A stretch of DNA of 64,000 nt from Halobacillus sp. Marseille-Q1614 (GTDB taxonomy: Bacteria > Bacillota > Bacilli > Bacillales > Halobacillaceae). The notes beneath the pieces are model-generated. The model ran no database searches, was not told the DNA's origin, and saw only the letters and a program-made list of their open reading frames with translations. The stretch is taken from positions 1,674,001 to 1,738,000 of the forward strand of contig NZ_CADDWH010000001.1 of assembly GCF_902809865.1 (NCBI RefSeq). Reading direction: 5' to 3'. How positions within the stretch are numbered: position 1 is the first letter of the stretch; each line of letters begins with the position of its first letter. Below are positions 27,515 to 52,139 of this stretch, in pieces. Position numbers and translations under genes: made by a program.

Positions 27515-28726
27515 CTATACTTCTTCTTTTACTTCCTCGTAAGGCCAGGCAGGAAGCATGCTTGACAGCGGATTATCCGAACGGTAGCCGAGCACATATT
27601 CAGCCTGCATAACGGTATGAATCTCTCTAGTCCCTTCATAAATTACAGGAGCTTTCGAGTTTCTTAAAAAGCGCTCGACAGGATATTCGCTTGAGTAGCC
27701 GTAAGCTCCGTGAATTTGCACGGCATCATTAGCAGCTTCGTTAGCAAAATCACAAGCCTGCCATTTGGCGAGAGAAGTCTCTCTTGTATTTCTTTTTCCT
27801 TGGTTCTTTAACTCACCGGCCCGAAAAACGAGCAGCCGTGACATTTGATAACCTGCTTCCATTTTCGCTAACATTTGCTGAACCAGCTGGTGCCTGCCGA
27901 TTTCTTTGCCAAACGTCTTTCTTTCATGGCAGTATTTCACGCTTTCCTCAAGACAAGCGAGAATTTGACCGCATGCGCCGGCAGCTACTGTAAAGCGTCC
28001 ATTATCAAGGGCCGACATGGCGATTTTAAAGCCTTCTCCTTCTTTCCCGAGCAGATTTTCTTTCGGCACTTTTACATTGTCAAAAAACAGCTCTCCCGTG
28101 TTGCCGGCTCTGATTCCAAGCTTACCTTTAATAGCTTTTGAAGCGAATCCCGGCATCGTGCGCTCAACGATAAAAGCTGAGATCCCTTTATGCTTTTTCG
28201 ATTTATCTGTGTAAGCAAATACGAGAAAATGATCGGCATGGTCGCAAAGGGAAATCCACGTTTTCTGACCATTTAAAATGTAGGAGTCCCCGTCTTTTTC
28301 CGCTGTCGTCAAAAGAGATGCCACATCAGAGCCTGCGTTTGGTTCCGTTAAACCAAAAGCCCCGACTTTTTCACCCTTCGCCTGTGGGATTAAGTATTTC
28401 TGTTTCTGAAATTCATTGCCCCATTGCAGGAGAGTCATACTGTTTAACCCTGTATGAACAGAAACTGCTGTACGAAAGGCCGTATCTCCACGCTCAAGCT
28501 CCTCGCAGACAATGGCTAAAGTGTTATAATCCATTCCGCTTCCGCCATATTGTTCTGGAATACATACTCCCATTAAATCGAGTTCGGACATCCGTTTCAT
28601 AATCGAAGCTTCAAAGTGCCCCTGCTCATCCCACTCTTGTATGTAAGGGTTGATCTCGTTATCAACAAACTTCCGCACGACTTTTCTAACCATGTCCTGT
28701 TCTTCACTTAGTGTAAAATTCATCAT
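27515..28726 (-). CDS. Acyl-CoA dehydrogenase (glutaryl-CoA dehydrogenase-like paralogue A)
   Basis: A complete 403-residue acyl-CoA dehydrogenase: FGLTEPNAGSDVAS, ILNGQKTWISLCDHADHF, ERKTFGKEIGRHQLVQQ, HGAYGYSSEYPVERFLRN and the catalytic Glu of VIYEGTREIH. It carries Arg in DTAFRTAVSVHTG at the place where glutaryl-CoA dehydrogenases hold the substrate carboxylate. It is very similar along its length to the enzyme at 50868-52052, with a longer charged tail (EEVKEEV). It stands alone with its own terminator. The substrate is not certain; a dicarboxyl- or branched-chain acyl-CoA is possible. Confidence 0.9.
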   Translation of the reverse strand: MMNFTLSEEQDMVRKVVRKFVDNEINPYIQEWDEQGHFEASIMKRMSELDLMGVCIPEQYGGSGMDYNTLAIVCEELERGDTAFRTAVSVHTGLNSMTLLQWGNEFQKQKYLIPQAKGEKVGAFGLTEPNAGSDVASLLTTAEKDGDSYILNGQKTWISLCDHADHFLVFAYTDKSKKHKGISAFIVERTMPGFASKAIKGKLGIRAGNTGELFFDNVKVPKENLLGKEGEGFKIAMSALDNGRFTVAAGACGQILACLEESVKYCHERKTFGKEIGRHQLVQQMLAKMEAGYQMSRLLVFRAGELKNQGKRNTRETSLAKWQACDFANEAANDAVQIHGAYGYSSEYPVERFLRNSKAPVIYEGTREIHTVMQAEYVLGYRSDNPLSSMLPAWPYEEVKEEV

Positions 28727-43903: not shown

Positions 43904-45052
43904 TTATATTCTCTTTTCGTTAATCACTACGCCGCGCTTCGCCATCTCCACTATATAAAGATTTCCCGGCACGATTTGTTCTGGCGGGCAGACGCCTTTT
44001 TTCGTAATTGCCTGGCTTCCGATCATTTGAGCGACAACGGAGATCGTGTTAGCGGTCGCCCGCGCCATCGCTGTAACTTTATTTTCCCTATCTTTATATG
44101 TGACCATTTCGTACTGATAGGTAGTATCTGCGCCGTTTTTCATTCCGCCGACACAGACACGAAGCAGGACCGCATCGTCTTTATCTTTTAAGTCTACAAT
44201 CGGATCTAACGTCTTCAGCAATACTTCCCGCGGCTTTACTTTAACACCGCCGACTTCTACTTCATAATCATTGCGGGTCAGCTGTAAGTCGACTAACAGC
44301 TTCATTTTTTCCGCATGTCCGCGGTAACGGATCGTTTTATATTCCAGCGTATCAATGGCTGGATAAGATTTCAGTAAAGTAGATGTTCCTCCAGACGTGT
44401 GAAAAGCTTCCAAGGGGCCAAAACGCTCGAAGTGGAGTTGTTCCACTTCTGTAAGTGACGGAACCTCTGCCAATCGGCCGTTTCTAATAATTGTCGATGG
44501 ATCGGTATAATGATCGAGCAGCCCTTCCATAGAGAACACGTGGTTGTATTCTAAGGGAGGTTCGGGCTGAACGGGAATTCCGCCTACGAAAAGGCGAATC
44601 GATTTGAGCTCATCCAGCTTACTTGCTCCATAACCGGACAGGATATTAATCATCCCCGGAGCCACACCAAGGTCCGGGATAATCGTTACCCCTGCAGCTT
44701 TGGCCTCCTCATCAAGCTCCAGCACTTGATCGGTGATGTGGCCGATATGTCCTCCTAAGTCTACAGAGCTTATTCCTACTTCAATAGCAGTCTCTGCTAC
44801 TATTTTATTAAAAGAATAAAATAATGCATTAATGACAACATCAAACTGCTTAATAAATGCGGCTAATTCAGCTGAATTCCCTGCATCTACTTTATAGGCT
44901 TTAATCTTCGGTGAATGGATAGATTGGCACACGGCTTCGGCTCGGTTGAAATCGATATCCGCCAGTCCTACTTTTTTTACACCTTTACTTCTGACTAAAT
45001 CTCGCGCTGCTTCTTTCCCCATTAAACCAGATCCTAGAACAGCTACTTTCAT
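43904..45052 (-). CDS. L-lysine 6-dehydrogenase
   Basis: A saccharopine-dehydrogenase-fold enzyme that oxidises the epsilon-amino group of lysine with NAD to give allysine (2-aminoadipate 6-semialdehyde, in equilibrium with piperideine-6-carboxylate). Residues 1-382 follow the known Geobacillus lysine dehydrogenase closely: [61 protein letters not shown] and [18 protein letters not shown] at 45052 has GGGGTG upstream; an earlier GTG overlaps that site. It ends the four-gene lysine operon. Confidence 0.92.
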
Positions 45053-45085
45053 AGTCCGCACCCCTTTATTACGTAATCTCTCCCT

Positions 45086-46588
45086 CTACTCCACGTCGAT
45101 TTGCGCGCGCTGCAGCCTGCCGCTGAAATCGACATAGACGGCTTTCCATTCGGTAAACACATCAAGCGCTGCTACACCAGAATCACGGTGTCCATTCCCA
45201 GTTCCTTTTGTTCCGCCAAAAGGAAGATGTATTTCCGCCCCTGTTGTTCCTGCGTTTACGTAAACAATTCCTGTATCTAAATCGCGTTGAGCCGCGAATA
45301 CTTTATTAACGTCCCTCGTAAAAATGGAGCTCGATAATCCATACTCCACACTGTTGTTAATTTCGATCGCTTCTTCCAGGCTTTTCACAGGAATCAAGGA
45401 AACGACCGGACCAAATATTTCTTCCTGGGCAATCCGCATATCTCCTCGAACATCCGTAAACAGCGTCGGCGCAAAATAATGACCATTGGCGTGCGTTCCG
45501 TTTTCCATAATGTAGCCGCCTGTTAAAAGCTTGGCCCCTTCTTCTTTACCAACTTGTATATAAGCTTTGATTTTCTCTAGGCCGCTGCGGTTAATAATCG
45601 GTCCTACTTTAACTGATTCGTCTAACCCATTTCCGATTGACAGTTTCGCAATTTCTGTAAGCAGACGTTTCTCCAGTTCTTCCTTTACGCTCTCATGAAC
45701 CATCACCCGGCTGCAGGCGGTGCAACGCTGGCCGCTCGTTCCATAGGCGCTCCATAGAATTCCTTCGACAGCTAATGAAAGATCGGCATCATCCATGACA
45801 ATCACCGCGTTCTTCCCGCCCATTTCAAGTGAAACTTTTTTCAGGCGCTGGCCGCATTTCCCGGCAATATTTCGGCCGACTTCATTTGAACCTGTAAAAG
45901 AGATCACGCGGATTGTATCCTGCTCAATCATCGCTTCGCCTACTGTAGATCCTGAGCCAAACACGACGTTGATGACACCCTCAGGCAGTCCGGCTTCTTC
46001 AAAAATTCTCGCCAGTTCAAAAGCCATGATCGGTGTTTCTGTCGCCGGTTTCCAGACGACTGCATTTCCGGCAACAATGGCAGGGAACGACTTCCACGTT
46101 GCAATCGCTATTGGAAAATTCCATGGTGTAATGATGCCGACTACACCAACAGGAGCACGAACGCTCATCGCAAACTTATCTTTCAACTCAGAAGGAGTCG
46201 TCTGGCCGAATAACCTGCGCCCTTCCCCAGCCATATAAAAGGCCATATCAATGCCTTCCTGTACTTCACCGCGCGCTTCTTCAATGACTTTTCCATTTTC
46301 CATCGTCAGGAGCTGCGATAAATATTCTTTACGCTCCTTCATAATCATTCCGACGCGGTACAGCACTTCAGCTCTTTGGGGAGCCGGAACGAGTGCCCAG
46401 TTTTTTTGCGCTTTTTTCGCAGCTTCTGTAGCTGCTTCGACGTCTCCTGCGGTCGATAAAGGAACCTTCACAAGCGTTTCTAAATTAGCCGGGTTTGTTA
46501 CGTCTGTGTACTTTCCGCCCGATGGTTCCTGCCAGTTTCCATTAATAAAATTTTTCAGCTTGTCATCTTGAATCACTCTGCGACTCAT
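45086..46588 (-). CDS. Aldehyde dehydrogenase (probable aminoadipate- or glutarate-semialdehyde dehydrogenase)
   Basis: A 500-residue NAD(P)-dependent ALDH: TPWNFPIAIATWK, FTGSNEVGR, general base Glu in LEMGGKNAV, nucleophile Cys in GTSGQRCTACSR, and EEIFGPVV. The tail TTGAEIHLPFGGTKGTGNGHRD recalls ALDHs acting on amino- or oxo-acid semialdehydes. Directly upstream of lysine dehydrogenase (33-nt gap), it most simply oxidises allysine to 2-aminoadipate. It might also oxidise glutarate semialdehyde later in the proposed pathway. AAGGAGG precedes the ATG. Confidence 0.88.
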   Translation of the reverse strand: MSRRVIQDDKLKNFINGNWQEPSGGKYTDVTNPANLETLVKVPLSTAGDVEAATEAAKKAQKNWALVPAPQRAEVLYRVGMIMKERKEYLSQLLTMENGKVIEEARGEVQEGIDMAFYMAGEGRRLFGQTTPSELKDKFAMSVRAPVGVVGIITPWNFPIAIATWKSFPAIVAGNAVVWKPATETPIMAFELARIFEEAGLPEGVINVVFGSGSTVGEAMIEQDTIRVISFTGSNEVGRNIAGKCGQRLKKVSLEMGGKNAVIVMDDADLSLAVEGILWSAYGTSGQRCTACSRVMVHESVKEELEKRLLTEIAKLSIGNGLDESVKVGPIINRSGLEKIKAYIQVGKEEGAKLLTGGYIMENGTHANGHYFAPTLFTDVRGDMRIAQEEIFGPVVSLIPVKSLEEAIEINNSVEYGLSSSIFTRDVNKVFAAQRDLDTGIVYVNAGTTGAEIHLPFGGTKGTGNGHRDSGVAALDVFTEWKAVYVDFSGRLQRAQIDVE

Positions 46589-46602
46589 GGGTAAATTCCT
46601 CC

Positions 46603-48258
46603 TTAATTATTATTTTTGCCGTTTTGTCTTAATTGCTCGATCGTTGATGTGAGTGAAATCTGTTCAGGATCACTTTCTACTTCAATCACAGCGGGCTTTC
46701 CTTCTTTTAACACCTGTAAAAGAGCCTGCTCGAATTCTTCCGGCTCCCTCACGTAAATGCCTAAAGCACCAAATCCTTGAGCGATTTTGTAAAACGGCAC
46801 ACTGCCTAAATCAGTGCCGATTGTTTTATATGGAAAATGGATTTCCTGATGCATTCGGATGGTTCCATACATTCGGTTATTAAATACGATGCTGATGACA
46901 GGAATCTGATAGCGTACGGCTGTTTCCAGCTCCTGCATCGTCATCATAAAGCCGCCGTCTCCTGACAAAGAAACGACCGTCCGGTTTGGCCAGGCCAGTT
47001 TCGCACCTAAAGCAGCAGGCATGCCGTAGCCCATTGCCCCTGAGGTAGGGCCAATGTATGTGTTTTTTTGATTAAATTGATAATAGGCATGAAGCCAGCC
47101 GGCAAAGTTCCCGGCATCGTTTGTCAGAATGGCATCTTTAGGCAGATGCTTTTGTAAAAGGGCGATAATCTTTTTGTTTACTGACTCTTCCTTCTCAGGC
47201 TTAAGTAATGCTTGGTAAGCCTCTCTCCCTGCCTTCCCCCATTCTTCAAAGACTACAGGAAGCTTCATTTCCATAAGCGCTGTCAGTCCCTCTTTGGCAT
47301 CTGCGACTATACCAATGTCCGGGGCGTAAACTTTTCCAAGGGTGTTAGTATCGATATCGATATGGATCAGCGTCTGGTCATTACGAATAAGCGAGTAATC
47401 CTGGGTCGTTACTTCAGAAAGTCTTGTTCCAATAGCAATGATCGCATCGGCTTCCTTAACGGTTTTTAGAATCTCTGGATTTGTCCCTAAGCCAAGATGG
47501 CCGGCGTACAGGGAATGATTGTTCGGAAAAACATCATGTCTGCGAAAAGCCGCCATAACGGGAAGACTGAATTTTTCAGCGAATTGCACGAGAGTTTTTT
47601 CCGCACCGGCATTCTTTACTCCCCCGCCAGCAATCACAAGCGGACGCTTTGCCTTCAAAAGCAGCTTTTCGGTTCCCTGCACCTCACGTAAGGAAGGACA
47701 CGGAGAAGGCCTATCCACCGGCTTTCCAAACTCCATGGCGGCACTTTTTTTTAATAAATCCTCAGGCAGGGAGATGACTACAGGACCAGGACGCCCGGTT
47801 TGTGCGATACGCAAAGCTCTTTGAACAATTTCTGGTACTCTCTTTGCTTCCTGAATCTCTACTGTCCACTTCGCAATCGGGGCAAAAAATCGGTCTAAGT
47901 CCACTTCCTGAAACCCTTCTCTTCCTCTAAACCGGCTGTCCACTTGCCCTAGTAAAACGATCATCGGCGTTGAGTCCTGATAGGCGGTGTGAACGCCTAT
48001 AGCCAGGTTAGATCCCCCGACTCCCCGTGTTGCCATTACCACTCCCGGCTGTCCACTTGCTTTAGCAAATCCTTCGGCCATAAAGGAAGCTCCGCCTTCA
48101 TGCCTTGTGGAAATAAGCTTAATGCTCGGTTCATCGTAGATGGCATCCATGACGGGAAGATAGCTTTCACCCGGCACGCAGAACACTTTTTGAATGCCTT
48201 CGATCTTCAGGCATTCAATAATCGCCTGTGCACTCGACATTTGCTCAGTCTGCTTCAC
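46603..48258 (-). CDS. ThDP-dependent decarboxylase / acetolactate synthase-like enzyme
   Basis: A 551-residue thiamine-diphosphate enzyme of the acetolactate synthase family. The cofactor-activating Glu is in TRHEGGASFMAEGFAK; a central FAD/NAD-like domain carries LVIAGGGVKNAG; the ThDP-Mg motif is GDGGFMMTMQELETAVRY...FNN. GTG start with GAGGGAG; it overlaps the aminotransferase gene by 14 bp. No ilvN-like regulatory subunit is near, so valine synthesis is unlikely. In this cluster a 2-oxoadipate decarboxylase role (giving glutarate semialdehyde) is the best guess. That is inference from context only. Confidence 0.82.
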   Translation of the reverse strand: MKQTEQMSSAQAIIECLKIEGIQKVFCVPGESYLPVMDAIYDEPSIKLISTRHEGGASFMAEGFAKASGQPGVVMATRGVGGSNLAIGVHTAYQDSTPMIVLLGQVDSRFRGREGFQEVDLDRFFAPIAKWTVEIQEAKRVPEIVQRALRIAQTGRPGPVVISLPEDLLKKSAAMEFGKPVDRPSPCPSLREVQGTEKLLLKAKRPLVIAGGGVKNAGAEKTLVQFAEKFSLPVMAAFRRHDVFPNNHSLYAGHLGLGTNPEILKTVKEADAIIAIGTRLSEVTTQDYSLIRNDQTLIHIDIDTNTLGKVYAPDIGIVADAKEGLTALMEMKLPVVFEEWGKAGREAYQALLKPEKEESVNKKIIALLQKHLPKDAILTNDAGNFAGWLHAYYQFNQKNTYIGPTSGAMGYGMPAALGAKLAWPNRTVVSLSGDGGFMMTMQELETAVRYQIPVISIVFNNRMYGTIRMHQEIHFPYKTIGTDLGSVPFYKIAQGFGALGIYVREPEEFEQALLQVLKEGKPAVIEVESDPEQISLTSTIEQLRQNGKNNN

Positions 48259-49432
48259 CCGCGCTCCCTCCCTTCATGATTTTTCTCATCCGGCAGGCCG
48301 CTTCCTCCAACCGCGCCGATGGAACAGATAAGGACAGCCGGACATATCCTTCTCCCCCGGCACCGAAGGCTGTCCCTGGTGTAAGAATGACACCGGCTTC
48401 TTCGAGTATTTTCTGTGAAAAAGACTGTGATGTATAGCCATCTGGCACTTTCGCCCAGAGGAAAAACGTCCCCTTCGGCCTTGCTGCTTTCATGCCGATT
48501 TCTTCAAGAGCGGGAAGCAGTTTTCCCATCCTTTCTTCATAGACGGCATTATTAGCCTTAACCGTTGAAAAATCACTGGTTAATGCGGCTGCGGCAGCTT
48601 TTTGGATGGCTAAAAACTGACTCGTATCCATATTGCTTTTAACAATGGATAACGCCTGAATTAATTCTTTGTTTCCAACGACGTAGCCGATTCTCCAGCC
48701 TGTCATATTAAAACTTTTCGACAGCGAGCCGAATTCGACGCTTATGTCCTTCGCTCCTGGAACCTGCAAAATACTTGGAGCTTTATAGCCGCCAAACGTG
48801 ACTAAATCATATGCCGCATCCTGTACGACCAACAGCTGGTGCCGTCTTGCAAACTCGACCGCTTCTTTAAAAGCATTAAGATCAACTGTGCCTCCTGTTG
48901 GATTACTCGGATAATTCAGCAGCATCAGTTTCGCATCTGCAAGCTCAAAATCTGAGAGTTCATCAAACTGAGGAACATATCCTTTAGCTTCATCAAGCGG
49001 AAGCGGGATCATGGATCCATACGCTAAGTGAATGGCAGACTGATAAACGGGATAGCCAGGGTCCGGCACGAGTACACCATCCCCGGGATCAAGAACCGCG
49101 CTGATCATATGGGCAATCCCTTCTTTAGAACCAATCAAGGCGAGCACCTCTGTATCTGGATCTAAAGAAACGTCGTAATGCCTTTTATAAAAAGAGGCCA
49201 CAGCTTGTCTAAATTCAGAACAGCCTCCATAAGGCGAGTATTTGTGGTTGGACGGCTTTCGGGCTTCCTCACTAAGGCGTTGAATAATAAAAGACGGGGT
49301 TGGCAGATCCGGTGCCCCAATCCCTAAATCAATGACGTCGACTCCCTTTTCCTGAAGTTTCTTCTTCTTTTGATGAAAAACAGAAAACAGATAAGGAGGC
49401 AGACTATTCACCTGTTTTGAACCATATTTCAT
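48245..49432 (-). CDS. PLP-dependent class I/II aminotransferase
   Basis: A 395-residue fold-type I aminotransferase. IDLGIGAPDLPTP, YSPYGGCSEFRQA, the NYPSNPTGG segment, the Asp of VVQDAAYDLV, the PLP Lys in FGSLSKSFNMTGWRIGY and the substrate Arg near YVRLSLSVP are all visible. It is closest in pattern to LL-diaminopimelate- or aminoadipate-type enzymes. First gene of the leftward lysine operon, so transfer of the amino group of 2-aminoadipate to 2-oxoglutarate is the likely role. Confidence 0.87.
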   Translation of the reverse strand: MKYGSKQVNSLPPYLFSVFHQKKKKLQEKGVDVIDLGIGAPDLPTPSFIIQRLSEEARKPSNHKYSPYGGCSEFRQAVASFYKRHYDVSLDPDTEVLALIGSKEGIAHMISAVLDPGDGVLVPDPGYPVYQSAIHLAYGSMIPLPLDEAKGYVPQFDELSDFELADAKLMLLNYPSNPTGGTVDLNAFKEAVEFARRHQLLVVQDAAYDLVTFGGYKAPSILQVPGAKDISVEFGSLSKSFNMTGWRIGYVVGNKELIQALSIVKSNMDTSQFLAIQKAAAAALTSDFSTVKANNAVYEERMGKLLPALEEIGMKAARPKGTFFLWAKVPDGYTSQSFSQKILEEAGVILTPGTAFGAGGEGYVRLSLSVPSARLEEAACRMRKIMKGGSAGEAD

Positions 49433-49467
49433 TTAAACAACCCCCAAATCAGATGGTACCTAATAAC

Positions 49468-49478
49468 GGGTTTGTCCC
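49468..49478 (-). promoter_or_regulatory. GGGACAAACCC element upstream of the aminotransferase
   Basis: An 11-nt stem-loop motif (GGG, ACAAA, CCC) in the leader of the leftward operon. A matching element, AGGACAAACCT, lies at 49578-49588 on the opposite strand before the divergent operon. The placement suggests shared control, but this is unproven. Confidence 0.3.
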
Positions 49479-49575
49479 ATTGTTCTATCCTATTAAGGCA
49501 AAATCCAATTCATGATAGTCTTTTAAATAGCGCAAAGATATTCATATTTTCAAAGCATCTGGAATAACTTGTAGT

Positions 49576-49590
49576 GTAGGACAAACCTAC
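49576..49590 (+). promoter_or_regulatory. GTAGG-ACAAA-CCTAC stem-loop in the CoA-transferase leader
   Basis: A 5-bp stem with the same ACAAA loop as the element at 49468-49478. It is followed by the long hairpin at 49603-49646. Confidence 0.3.
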
Positions 49591-49602
49591 GAAGCAGATC
49601 CC

Positions 49603-49646
49603 AAGCCAGTTGGATTCATACATCGTATGGGTTCGGCTGGCTTTTT
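49603..49646 (+). terminator. Long leader hairpin/attenuator before the CoA-transferase gene
   Basis: AAGCCAG... and ...CTGGCTT pair over 19 positions with wobbles around an ATC loop, followed by a T-run. It ends only 17 nt before the start codon, and no rightward gene lies upstream, so it may be an attenuator in the gene's own leader. Confidence 0.6.
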
Positions 49647-49662
49647 CCTATAGTGAAAGGAA

Positions 49663-50856
49663 GTGATTGAACTGACAGCACTAAAAGGAATCCGCGTGCT
49701 CGACTTAACACGCGTGCTGGCCGGACCCTATTGTTCGATGATCCTTGGTGATCTTGGGGCGGAAGTAATTAAAGTGGAGGCTCCCGGCGGAAGCGATGAT
49801 ACGAGAAAATGGGGACCACCCTTTCAGGAAGGCGTAAGTGCTTATTATTTATGCGCGAACCGCAGCAAAAAAAGCCTCACCGTAAACTTAAAAACAAATG
49901 AGGGCAGGCAAATTATAGAAAAACTCACAGCTAATAGTGACGTCGTTCTTCATAATTTCAAAACCGGCACGATGGAGCGGCTCGGCCTTGATTATTCGTC
50001 ATTAAAAGAGATTAATCCCCGGATTGTCTACTGTTCGATCACGGGATTTGGGGAGACCGGACCTTATAAAAACCTGCCGGGCTACGATTTTATTATCCAG
50101 GCGATGAGCGGGCTGATGAGCATTACAGGCGATGAACAATCGGGTCCGCAAAAACTTGGCGTTGCGATTACCGATATTTTAACGGGATTATATGCGTGTA
50201 TTGGAATAGAGGCTGCCCTGCTTGAAAGAAATCAATCCGGTCTCGGGCAGAAAATCGACCTATCCCTCTATGATTCTGCGGTCAGCTCGCTCGTTAATAT
50301 TGGCAGCAATTATTTATTGTCAGGGCAGCTTCCAAAGAGACTTGGAAATCATCATGCCAACATCGTTCCTTACCAGACCTTTTGTGCAAGCGACGGTGAA
50401 ATGGTCATAGCTGTCGGCAATGATAAGCAGTTTGCCGCACTGTGTGGAATCATCCAACAGCGGGCCTTAGCGTTAGATGAACGATTTAAGACTAACCCTG
50501 ACCGGGTTGCCTGCCGAAATGAGCTTATTCCGATTTTGCAGCGAGCTCTTTTGAAAAATCCGACCGCTTATTGGAAGGAAAAATGTCAGGAAGCCGGCAT
50601 TCCGTTTGGAGCGATTCAGACAGTCGAAGATCTCGTTAAAGATGAACAGCTCAACGCTCGCGATATGTTTGTTTCTGCGAAGCATCCAAAAGCCGGCGAG
50701 GTCAAGATGATCGGCAGCCCTTTAAAGCTGGTGCGCACCCCTCCATCTGTCAGCAGCCATCCTCCTGAACCCGGGGAGCACACCGAACAAATTTTACAGT
50801 CGATAGGTTATTCCAGCGCCGAGATTAAAGATCTGAGAAAAACGAACACGATATAA
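49663..50856 (+). CDS. CaiB/BaiF CoA-transferase, SUGCT-like (glutarate CoA-transferase candidate)
   Basis: A family III CoA-transferase of 397 residues with catalytic Asp171 in VAITDILTGLYA. The N-terminal LDLTRVLAGPYCSMILGDLG, GGSDDTRKWGPPF and NIVPYQTFCASDGEMVIAVG regions closely resemble human SUGCT, which makes glutaryl-CoA from glutarate using succinyl-CoA. Start assignment is uncertain: GTG at 49663 is very close to AAAGGA, and CTG at 49672 is better spaced. It is the first of two rightward genes, divergent from the lysine operon. Confidence 0.88.
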   Translation: MIELTALKGIRVLDLTRVLAGPYCSMILGDLGAEVIKVEAPGGSDDTRKWGPPFQEGVSAYYLCANRSKKSLTVNLKTNEGRQIIEKLTANSDVVLHNFKTGTMERLGLDYSSLKEINPRIVYCSITGFGETGPYKNLPGYDFIIQAMSGLMSITGDEQSGPQKLGVAITDILTGLYACIGIEAALLERNQSGLGQKIDLSLYDSAVSSLVNIGSNYLLSGQLPKRLGNHHANIVPYQTFCASDGEMVIAVGNDKQFAALCGIIQQRALALDERFKTNPDRVACRNELIPILQRALLKNPTAYWKEKCQEAGIPFGAIQTVEDLVKDEQLNARDMFVSAKHPKAGEVKMIGSPLKLVRTPPSVSSHPPEPGEHTEQILQSIGYSSAEIKDLRKTNTI

Positions 50857-50867
50857 GGAGTGGTTTT

Positions 50868-52052
50868 ATGAACTTTGAATATAACGATGAACAAGCGCTG
50901 CTGCGTAAAACGGTCCGCGACTTTACCGATAAAGAGATTATGCCATATATCGGCGAGTGGGACGCTAAAGGTTACTTTAATAAAGATCTGATGAAAAAGC
51001 TGGCGGATTTAGGGGTGATGGGAGTCTGCATTCCGGAAAAATACGGAGGAAGCGGGATGGATTATAATTCGCTGGCTATCGTTTGTGAGGAATTAGAGCG
51101 TGGCGATACCGCTTTTCGAACAGCGGTTTCTGTACACACCGGCTTAAACAGCATGTCCCTTCTGCAATGGGGAACAGAGGAACAGAAACAGAAATATCTT
51201 GTACCGCAGGCAAAAGGCGAAAAAATCGGAGCCTTTGGGTTAACCGAGCCGGGAGCCGGTTCTGATGTAGCGGCTCTGCAGTCAACCGCCAAACGAGAAG
51301 ACGATTATTATATTTTAAATGGACAAAAAACGTGGATTTCGCTATGTGACACAGCCGATCACTTCCTCGTTTTCGCTTACACCGATAAATCAAAAAAGCA
51401 CCACGGCATCTCAGCTTTTATTGTAGAACGAGCGATGGAAGGTTTCTCATCAAAAGCAACAAAAGGAAAGCTCGGCATTCGAGCCGGTAATACAGGAGAG
51501 CTGTTTTTTGACCAGGTGAAGGTACCCAAAGAAAACCTTGTCGGAAAAGAAGGCGAAGGATTTAAAATTGCGATGGCCGCCCTCGATAACGGCCGCTTTA
51601 CCGTAGCTGCAGGAGCGTGCGGGCAGATTATGGCCTGTCTTGAAGCAAGTGTCGAATACTGCCATGAGCGCCAGACGTTTGGAAAAGAAATCGGCCGCCA
51701 CCAGCTCGTCCAGCAGATGATTGCCAAAATGGAAGCCGGGCTGCAGATGAGCCGACTGCTCGTTTTCCGGGCCGGTGAGCTGAAAAATAAAGGGGTGCGC
51801 AATACTCGGGAAACTTCTTTGGCGAAATGGCAGGCCTGTGATTTCGCTAACCAGGCCGCTGATGACGCTGTCCAAATCCACGGCGCCTATGGCTATTCCA
51901 ATGAGTATCCGGTGGAGCGCTATTTGCGCAACTCAAAAGCCCCGGTGATTTATGAAGGAACACGGGAAATCCATACGATCATGCAGGCGGAGTACGTGCT
52001 CGGCTACCGTAAAGATAAACCATTAAATAAAATGCTGCCGGCCTGGGAGTAG
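50868..52052 (+). CDS. Acyl-CoA dehydrogenase (glutaryl-CoA dehydrogenase candidate, paralogue B)
   Basis: A 394-residue acyl-CoA dehydrogenase 11 nt after the CoA-transferase gene. Arg84 in GDTAFRTAVSVHTG lies where glutaryl-CoA dehydrogenases have the Arg (SGYRSAMSVQSSL in human) that binds the distal carboxylate; FGLTEPGAGSDV, ILNGQKTWISL and catalytic Glu in VIYEGTREIH are present. With a SUGCT-like partner, oxidative decarboxylation of glutaryl-CoA to crotonyl-CoA is plausible. The paralogue at 27515-28726 has the same Arg, so the residue alone is not decisive. AAGGAGTGG precedes the ATG. Confidence 0.87.
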   Translation: MNFEYNDEQALLRKTVRDFTDKEIMPYIGEWDAKGYFNKDLMKKLADLGVMGVCIPEKYGGSGMDYNSLAIVCEELERGDTAFRTAVSVHTGLNSMSLLQWGTEEQKQKYLVPQAKGEKIGAFGLTEPGAGSDVAALQSTAKREDDYYILNGQKTWISLCDTADHFLVFAYTDKSKKHHGISAFIVERAMEGFSSKATKGKLGIRAGNTGELFFDQVKVPKENLVGKEGEGFKIAMAALDNGRFTVAAGACGQIMACLEASVEYCHERQTFGKEIGRHQLVQQMIAKMEAGLQMSRLLVFRAGELKNKGVRNTRETSLAKWQACDFANQAADDAVQIHGAYGYSNEYPVERYLRNSKAPVIYEGTREIHTIMQAEYVLGYRKDKPLNKMLPAWE

Positions 52053-52105: not shown

Positions 52106-52139
52106 AAGGAATTCTGCACGTGGAGAATTCCTTCTTTTT
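52106..52139. terminator. Second hairpin, shared by convergent genes
   Basis: AAGGAATTCT and AGAATTCCTT form a perfect 10-bp stem followed on the plus strand by CTTTTTC. It lies 3 nt before the end of the leftward lipoprotein gene. Confidence 0.75.

Follow-up and report, generated by a model that had tools for sequence, protein, structure and literature searches.

A conserved six-gene cluster of Halobacillus and a proposed route of lysine catabolism through free glutarate

We analyzed a 64,000-nt stretch of the genome of Halobacillus sp. Marseille-Q1614 (contig NZ_CADDWH010000001.1, positions 1,674,001 to 1,738,000), hereafter the window, to which all coordinates refer. Between 43904 and 52052 it holds six genes that most likely make up a lysine catabolic pathway through free glutarate, in which an enzyme dependent on thiamine diphosphate (ThDP) would stand in place of the 2-oxoadipate dehydrogenase (OADH) complex. 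We base this reading on which genes are present, the families they belong to, diagnostic residues of the enzymes at either end of the route, conserved linkage, and patterns of joint presence and absence; we infer the substrates of the aminotransferase, the ThDP enzyme, the aldehyde dehydrogenase, and the CoA-transferase. The features are as follows.

48245 to 49432, minus strand: aminotransferase, class I/II; proposed 2-aminoadipate aminotransferase
46603 to 48258, minus strand: ThDP enzyme, PRK08199 subfamily; proposed non-oxidative 2-oxoadipate decarboxylase
45086 to 46588, minus strand: aldehyde dehydrogenase (ALDH); proposed allysine/piperideine-6-carboxylate (P6C) dehydrogenase
43904 to 45061, minus strand: lysine 6-dehydrogenase (LysDH), with saccharopine-dehydrogenase domains
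49663 to 50856, plus strand: CoA-transferase, family III; proposed succinyl-CoA:glutarate CoA-transferase of the GcdG/SUGCT type
50868 to 52052, plus strand: acyl-CoA dehydrogenase (ACAD); proposed decarboxylating glutaryl-CoA dehydrogenase
49433 to 49662, no strand: putative divergent control region, 230 nt between the aminotransferase and CoA-transferase genes
49603 to 49643, plus strand: leader hairpin and U run just 5' of the CoA-transferase start; candidate attenuator

Our reading of the open reading frames (ORFs) in the window placed all six genes, and the 230-nt gap from which they diverge, where an initial annotation had put them. The overlaps and short gaps that it described are also there: the aminotransferase and ThDP genes overlap by 14 nt, and the gaps are 14 nt (ThDP to ALDH), 24 nt (ALDH to LysDH), and 11 nt (CoA-transferase to ACAD). 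Terminator-like sites flank the cluster just beyond both ends (43866-43833, minus strand, and 52106-52133, plus strand).

In the proposed route, LysDH would convert L-lysine to allysine/P6C, which ALDH would oxidize to 2-aminoadipate and the aminotransferase would turn into 2-oxoadipate. The ThDP enzyme would decarboxylate 2-oxoadipate to glutarate semialdehyde and CO2, and either the same ALDH or an unlinked one resembling succinate-semialdehyde dehydrogenase (SSADH) would oxidize the semialdehyde to glutarate. Because the ThDP step would replace the OADH complex, free glutarate would arise and a CoA-transferase would be needed. A succinyl-CoA:glutarate CoA-transferase would then form glutaryl-CoA, which glutaryl-CoA dehydrogenase would convert to crotonyl-CoA and CO2 with transfer of electrons to electron-transferring flavoprotein (ETF).

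Conservation of the cluster and identity of its enzymes

We scanned the best 80 of 82 loci that carry relatives of the ThDP protein (loci are given L numbers and genomes G numbers). LysDH, defined by at least 50% identity over more than 250 residues, was present in 52 of them. Within these 52 loci, we found ALDH (at least 60% identity) in 52, the aminotransferase (at least 50%) in 47, the CoA-transferase (at least 50%) in 38, ACAD (at least 75%) in 39, and the last two together in 38. The count of 38 for the CoA-transferase is a lower bound, since some of the stretches that lack it end early (e.g., L012, L031, L038, and L048). By comparison, none of the 28 ThDP loci without LysDH held the CoA-transferase at 50% identity or more or ACAD at 74% or more. 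The CoA-transferase gene lies upstream of the ThDP gene in the opposite direction in 17 of the 38 loci, downstream in the opposite direction in 17, upstream in the same direction in three, and downstream in the same direction in one, four placements which indicate that the linkage outlives rearrangement. The genes that the initial annotation had grouped in one genome recur together in many genera, which argues that their arrangement is not due to chance.

The first enzyme carries both saccharopine-dehydrogenase domains, the NADP-binding domain PF03435 (82.6 bits) and the C-terminal domain PF16653 (147 bits), at the level of family membership. Among solved structures it is closest to 3abi/PH1688 (135.9 bits), which PMC10413350 describes as an L-lysine 6-dehydrogenase. 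A model of the Geobacillus enzyme, LysEDH, has an active site made up of V130, V172, F173, H181, Y238, T240, and R242 (PMC6697735). All seven residues occur in the window protein at identical numbers when counted from an internal ATG, and they are invariant in 67 of 67 loci with at least 55% identity, a few of which are probably one genome under two labels (e.g., L065 and L102, whose contigs are equally long). Because the residue numbers then match those of the published enzyme, this ATG, 9 nt (three codons) inside the listed GTG, is probably the true start. Together, domains, solved relative, and active-site residues support the gene as an L-lysine 6-dehydrogenase that would form allysine/P6C, as the initial annotation had it. 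In one relative (L103, genome G034), the LysDH gene is broken into two ORFs and an ALDH ORF could not be located, while the aminotransferase, ThDP, CoA-transferase, and ACAD genes look intact; the split is either decay or a sequencing error.

The last enzyme belongs to the acyl-CoA dehydrogenase family by domain search. It carries Glu77, Arg84, Tyr362, and Glu363 at what we take to be the places of Glu87, Arg94, Tyr369, and Glu370 in human glutaryl-CoA dehydrogenase, a placement made by motif. The set of four is identical in 61 of 61 matches with at least 74% identity and in none of seven that are less alike. An aligned chain named glutaryl-CoA dehydrogenase (3mpi), presumably of the non-decarboxylating type, keeps the Arg, but the Tyr is replaced by Val and Glu87 by Ala. 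The Arg is missing from two aligned chains whose name is just acyl-CoA dehydrogenase. For the human enzyme, roles are described for Arg94 (substrate carboxylate), Tyr369, and Glu370 (catalytic) (PMC3169403). The signature, with the Arg and a Tyr of the decarboxylating type, supports ACAD as a decarboxylating glutaryl-CoA dehydrogenase that would yield crotonyl-CoA and CO2, in line with the earlier assignment. A second gene like that for glutaryl-CoA dehydrogenase lies elsewhere in the window (27515-28726, minus strand), next to genes for a sigma-54 activator and an ABC transporter of the branched-chain type. Its product is 83% identical to ACAD and has the same diagnostic residues.

The CoA-transferase is a member of family III (PF02515, 437.6 bits), and the best of the seven curated models that it matched is succinate-glutarate CoA-transferase (NF052585). 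Its four closest solved chains include 9br6 and 9br7, named succinate--hydroxymethylglutarate CoA-transferase, which we take to be human SUGCT. We propose that it is a succinyl-CoA:glutarate CoA-transferase of the GcdG/SUGCT type.

ALDH (PF00171) comes nearest to a GucD-type model (544 of 770 bits) and to P6C dehydrogenase NF050084 (423.8 of 730 bits). The aminotransferase (PF00155) resembles LL-DAP-aminotransferase, at 506.5 bits against a cut-off of 507, and hence is not a confirmed member of that family. We propose that ALDH would act on allysine/P6C, perhaps also on glutarate semialdehyde, and that the aminotransferase would convert 2-aminoadipate to 2-oxoadipate. A second ALDH gene adjoins ACAD in 13 of the 52 LysDH loci, and the one tested, from L007, is SSADH-like (TIGR01780, 616 of 646 bits). 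The window cluster has no such gene, and its genome holds two unlinked relatives of it with 54% and 52% identity. These SSADH-like genes lie at C1:32549-33955 and C1:3350745-3352145 of the genome. Either one ALDH serves both oxidations or a separate SSADH-like enzyme takes the second. The initial annotation had suggested a complete route in six genes; the identity of LysDH, the glutaryl-CoA dehydrogenase signature, and the linkage of the ThDP gene support it in part, and given the second ALDH the route may need a seventh gene.

Other genes accompany the cluster in some relatives. A regulator is found in 25 of the 80 ThDP loci (of the IclR type in L007). A DUF3870 protein occurs in 23 of the 80 (PF12986 in L007, at L007:13267-13587), and DUF3870 proteins also occur in 10 of 12 loci where the CoA-transferase and ACAD genes form a pair (L115-L123 and L126), which suggests that DUF3870 may be an uncharacterized partner of glutarate metabolism. 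In four Anoxybacillus loci (L043, L045, L046, and L072), extra genes follow LysDH. Those of L043 are of the ETF beta, ETF alpha, and FixC types, the expected electron acceptors of a glutaryl-CoA dehydrogenase.

The ThDP enzyme and the exit from 2-oxoadipate

The ThDP enzyme has the three domains of its superfamily by domain search and scores 755.1 bits against the PRK08199 model NF006052, well over the cut-off of 539. Glu54, Asp434, and Glu31 are conserved in all 77 rows compared. The active site of ThDP enzymes spans two chains, and Glu54 and Asp434 presumably bind ThDP and metal. Twenty-seven positions (e.g., Glu282, Trp340, Ala386, and His390) separate the 52 LysDH-linked rows from the 25 others, in a comparison that left out L024, L049, L079, and the paralogues in the window's own genome. 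The four residues named are also found in second ThDP proteins of L098 and of L099, a stretch in which there is no CoA-transferase. In a tree of 83 rows, all 52 LysDH-linked rows (51 loci plus the window, L030 having given no ThDP ORF) fall inside one group of 57 (SH-aLRT 82).

The solved chains closest to the enzyme are acetolactate synthase and BbmA, with which it shares a fold family, and it could in principle be an acetolactate-synthase-like carboligase, with the cluster a loosely assembled set of amino-acid and acyl-CoA genes. This is very improbable. The protein lies below every acetolactate synthase cut-off among the matches listed (the best 25 of 58 families), reaching at most 429.6 of 538.35 bits (TIGR00118), compared with a score far above the PRK08199 cut-off. 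Glu31 is present in all 77 rows, and the three own-genome ThDP paralogues have Gly, Asp, and Gly at that position. The linkage is also too conserved for a loose assembly. We rejected acetolactate synthase or another carboligase on these model scores and the conserved linkage, and we propose that the enzyme is a non-oxidative 2-oxoadipate decarboxylase.

The distribution of the genes among genomes is consistent with this proposal. In 44 genomes from the family of the window, the ThDP gene (E <= 1e-150) and LysDH (E <= 1e-80) were present in the same 32 and both absent from the other 12. The CoA-transferase, at 67% identity or more, occurred in all 32 and in one of the 12 others (G020, an assembly of about 1,000 contigs). 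Looser counts, which include paralogues, gave 37 of 44 for both the CoA-transferase (E <= 1e-80) and ACAD (E <= 1e-150). We also sampled 150 genomes of the order at a single setting (E <= 1e-140 for ThDP, 1e-60 for LysDH, 1e-110 for the CoA-transferase, and 1e-190 for ACAD). The ThDP gene was found in 25 and LysDH in 30, with both in 22, ThDP only in three, and LysDH only in eight. Among the 30 LysDH genomes, the CoA-transferase was present in 20 of 22 with the ThDP gene versus one of eight without it (Fisher P = 1.3e-4, kinship uncorrected). Among those that also have ACAD, the counts were 19 of 19 versus one of five (P = 4.7e-4, likewise uncorrected). In four genomes (G063, G139, G156, and G183), a glutaryl-CoA dehydrogenase gene lies near LysDH and both the ThDP and CoA-transferase genes are under threshold. 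That the CoA-transferase tracks the ThDP gene among LysDH genomes is as expected if the ThDP step is the sole source of free glutarate. Since both states of the ThDP gene occur inside families f2 and f21, the association is not the effect of a single lineage.

A different explanation is that 2-oxoadipate goes directly to glutaryl-CoA through oxidation by the 2-oxoglutarate dehydrogenase complex, leaving the CoA-transferase for glutarate that is imported or comes from elsewhere and the ThDP enzyme for some other 2-oxo acid. The mammalian complex can oxidize 2-oxoadipate in vitro (PMC7002488). The window's own genome has one E1 component of 2-oxoglutarate dehydrogenase (E1o) above the TIGR00239 cut-off, with three weak matches far under it, and exactly one was found in 19 of 20 LysDH genomes searched (all eight without the ThDP gene and 12 of the 22 with it). 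The same TIGR00239 search of the own genome recovered no dedicated E1 of OADH (E1a) besides E1o, in keeping with the earlier suggestion of a route that bypasses the OADH complex. We nevertheless regard this explanation as unlikely. It does not account for the way in which the CoA-transferase follows the ThDP gene among LysDH genomes, or for the 32 family genomes that share the ThDP gene and LysDH. At E <= 1e-50, no E1 of 2-oxoglutarate dehydrogenase was found in one genome of the order (G161) that has the ThDP, LysDH, CoA-transferase, and ACAD genes.

Two loci without LysDH bear on the same question, as their ThDP genes are operonic with the CoA-transferase and ACAD. In L098 (7247-13419, genome G041), an IclR-like gene (identified by eye), the aminotransferase, ThDP, CoA-transferase, and ACAD genes run in one direction without LysDH or the cluster ALDH. 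The identities to the window proteins are 54% (aminotransferase), 54% (ThDP), 58% (CoA-transferase), and 84% (ACAD), and G041 has a lysine cluster besides. In L123 (genome G077), genes for a ThDP enzyme (51%), a DUF3870 protein, a 501-residue protein, a CoA-transferase (45%), and ACAD (79%) run in one direction. The pair of CoA-transferase and ACAD genes occurred in 12 of 17 loci read, of which only L123 has the ThDP gene in the stretch; some of them (L121 and L125) have GabT-like and ALDH genes close to the pair. The pair thus looks like a portable glutarate module with the ThDP enzyme as one of its feeders. Linkage, co-occurrence, and these two operons all point to the ThDP enzyme as the step from 2-oxoadipate toward glutarate, the role first suggested for it in the initial annotation.

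The neighboring aminotransferase admits yet another reading, modeled on AruH/AruI. The arginine transaminase pathway has this layout, with an aminotransferase gene next to a ThDP gene. By analogy, lysine would lose its alpha-amino group to the aminotransferase, 6-amino-2-oxohexanoate would be decarboxylated by the ThDP enzyme to 5-aminopentanal, ALDH would form 5-aminovalerate, and an omega-transaminase would yield glutarate semialdehyde. The four Anoxybacillus loci fit this in part, having a class III aminotransferase and another ALDH beside the ThDP gene (GabT-like and GucD-like, respectively, in L043). The same four, however, have no class I aminotransferase at 50% identity or more and so no alpha-transaminase in the stretch, and the GabT-like cluster was seen in no other LysDH loci (many other ORFs being unnamed). 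Moreover, LysDH, present in 52 of the 80 ThDP loci, would be left without a role. We judge this reading to be quite improbable.

Another known exit from 2-oxoadipate uses HglS. None of the six cluster proteins matches it (DUF1338/PF07063); the own genome was not searched for HglS. A search with LysDH led to Agrobacterium plasmid pRiA4b (L134:7995-16462), where genes for a LysDH-like protein, P6C dehydrogenase, an aminotransferase, HglS, and YdiJ lie together. Three of these proteins score at the equivalog level: P6C dehydrogenase (810.6 of 730 bits), HglS (750.8 of 550), and YdiJ (1465.5 of 1350). As in the window, the first three would lead to 2-oxoadipate. In contrast, the exit would be HglS followed by YdiJ, a D-2-hydroxyglutarate dehydrogenase, and the annotation of the stretch read includes neither a ThDP enzyme nor a CoA-transferase or glutaryl-CoA dehydrogenase. 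The parallel was found in this one of the four plasmid neighborhoods read, and identities to the window are 31% for LysDH, 36% for ALDH, and 27% for the aminotransferase.

Several observations weigh against the pathway through free glutarate. At the level of single proteins, ACAD scores 374.6 of the 470 bits required by GlutCoADH_Des, an NCBIfam model of a relative, and ALDH and the aminotransferase miss every curated cut-off among the families listed. The CoA-transferase reaches 435.3 of 750 bits for NF052585, so that the SUGCT-like identity given to it earlier holds for its best model and not at equivalog level. The LysDH-like protein of pRiA4b keeps three of the seven LysEDH residues (Y238, T240, and R242), which makes that parallel one of role more than of close descent. 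The PRK08199 family is not bound to one substrate, given that relatives lie in unrelated settings: beside hydantoinase/oxoprolinase genes on a Rhizobium plasmid, beside an ALDH alone in Azospirillum, and elsewhere near enolase-superfamily or methionine-transporter-like genes (by eye, from sequence starts). We accordingly rejected the PRK08199 protein as a marker of one function everywhere. Five loci inside the LysDH-linked ThDP group (L024, L049, L052, L068, and L069) have no LysDH in the stretch, and 14 of the 52 LysDH loci have no CoA-transferase in theirs. Pairs of CoA-transferase and ACAD genes without ThDP and LysDH occurred in 11 of the 17 loci read, as the explanation by 2-oxoglutarate dehydrogenase would have it. 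Among genomes, the co-occurrence statistics carry no correction for kinship, and in eight of the 30 LysDH genomes no ThDP gene reached the threshold. Genome G053 holds LysDH, the CoA-transferase, and ACAD without ThDP; G082 and G121 have LysDH and ThDP without CoA-transferase or ACAD matches; and G098, G122, and G131 have LysDH without matches to any of the other three. Last, G156 retains the aminotransferase, ALDH, LysDH, glutaryl-CoA dehydrogenase, and a second ALDH with neither ThDP nor CoA-transferase, so that the link of the aminotransferase and the second ALDH to the ThDP step is not a strict one.

The divergent region and the leader hairpin

A nine-base motif occurs in the divergent gap in inverted copies (49469-49477 and 49579-49587), one on each side. 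It is largely retained in most of 13 aligned sequences, and the two copies are a candidate operator pair. Promoter-like sites were not above the level in shuffled sequences (10 versus 14.5), and terminator-like sites numbered 19 versus 12.3.

The leader hairpin (49603-49643), picked up in the scan for terminator-like sites, has 19 pairs followed by a U run and a folding z-score of -6.05. Its core is present in 14 of 131 loci, the window's own among them, and its sequence is nearly invariant across relatives, G-U pairs included. Covariation is weak, with a two-sided change at only one of 17 pairs in a fold of 12 sequences that excluded L003, which has a different hairpin at that place. A search of Rfam gave no match in positions 36000-60000 of the window, a range that includes the hairpin. 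Because the aminotransferase gene runs in the opposite direction, a terminator here would act on the CoA-transferase and ACAD genes, for which the hairpin is a candidate attenuator.

Relation to known routes and meaning for lysine catabolism

Mammalian SUGCT is a side enzyme. In the window cluster, by contrast, the CoA-transferase would be on the main line. The mammalian saccharopine pathway (DHTKD1, GCDH, and SUGCT) shares with the proposed route 2-aminoadipate, 2-oxoadipate, glutaryl-CoA, crotonyl-CoA, and enzymes of the GCDH and SUGCT types. There, 2-oxoadipate is taken straight to glutaryl-CoA by a dehydrogenase complex (PMC7002488). Pseudomonas putida comes closer in its later steps, as its 5-aminovalerate route also has free glutarate, a CoA-transferase, and glutaryl-CoA dehydrogenase (GcdG/GcdH), with GcdG activating glutarate (PMC7645780). 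It differs in that glutarate semialdehyde is reached via DavB, DavA, and DavT and not from 2-oxoadipate (PMC12861294). In Agrobacterium tumefaciens, CaiB (Atu2127) is a glutarate CoA-transferase with demonstrated succinyl-CoA:glutarate transfer, and glutaryl-CoA for biotin synthesis can come there from lysine, 2-oxoadipate, or glutarate, with a glutarate CoA-transferase required (PMC7645780). This transfer is like that proposed for the window; the use for biotin is not, and the parts of PMC7645780 consulted name no enzyme for the conversion of 2-oxoadipate to glutarate. HglS is described as dependent on Fe(II) and O2 (PMC7286885).

The chemistry proposed for the ThDP enzyme and ALDH has been assembled artificially, with KivD, a lactococcal enzyme, and GabD. 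The engineered Escherichia coli route takes alpha-ketoadipate to glutarate with these two, both of which the 2026 review of glutarate production calls native to E. coli (PMC12861294). Its steps match those proposed here, but it is fed by homocitrate-type chain extension and is not a lysine pathway. As natural routes, the review describes those through 5-aminovalerate and cadaverine (PMC12861294). Among the titles and abstract openings listed in searches of open-licence literature, we found no account of a natural ThDP-dependent 2-oxoadipate decarboxylase in lysine catabolism. The route is most likely a variant of lysine catabolism assembled from known enzyme families, one in which the natural ThDP step was not found described.

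We think it likely that a natural ThDP-dependent 2-oxoadipate decarboxylase, of a clade within PRK08199, defines an O2-independent pathway from lysine to crotonyl-CoA through free glutarate that would be widespread in Bacillaceae and their kin. Over evolution it would be exchangeable for the exits by OADH and HglS, with the CoA-transferase kept or missing along with it. If so, a clade of the broad "thiamine pyrophosphate protein" family would gain a function, and the lysine 6-dehydrogenase pathway would extend beyond 2-aminoadipate. As an enzymatic exit from 2-oxoadipate the step would be the third, after the OADH complex and HglS, and it would explain why these genomes place a SUGCT-type enzyme next to glutaryl-CoA dehydrogenase. 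A keto-acid decarboxylase has been borrowed for glutarate production (PMC12861294), and a natural enzyme that decarboxylates 2-oxoadipate would be of use there. In salt-loving relatives of Bacillus, the conserved set of genes most likely serves to degrade lysine by way of free glutarate.

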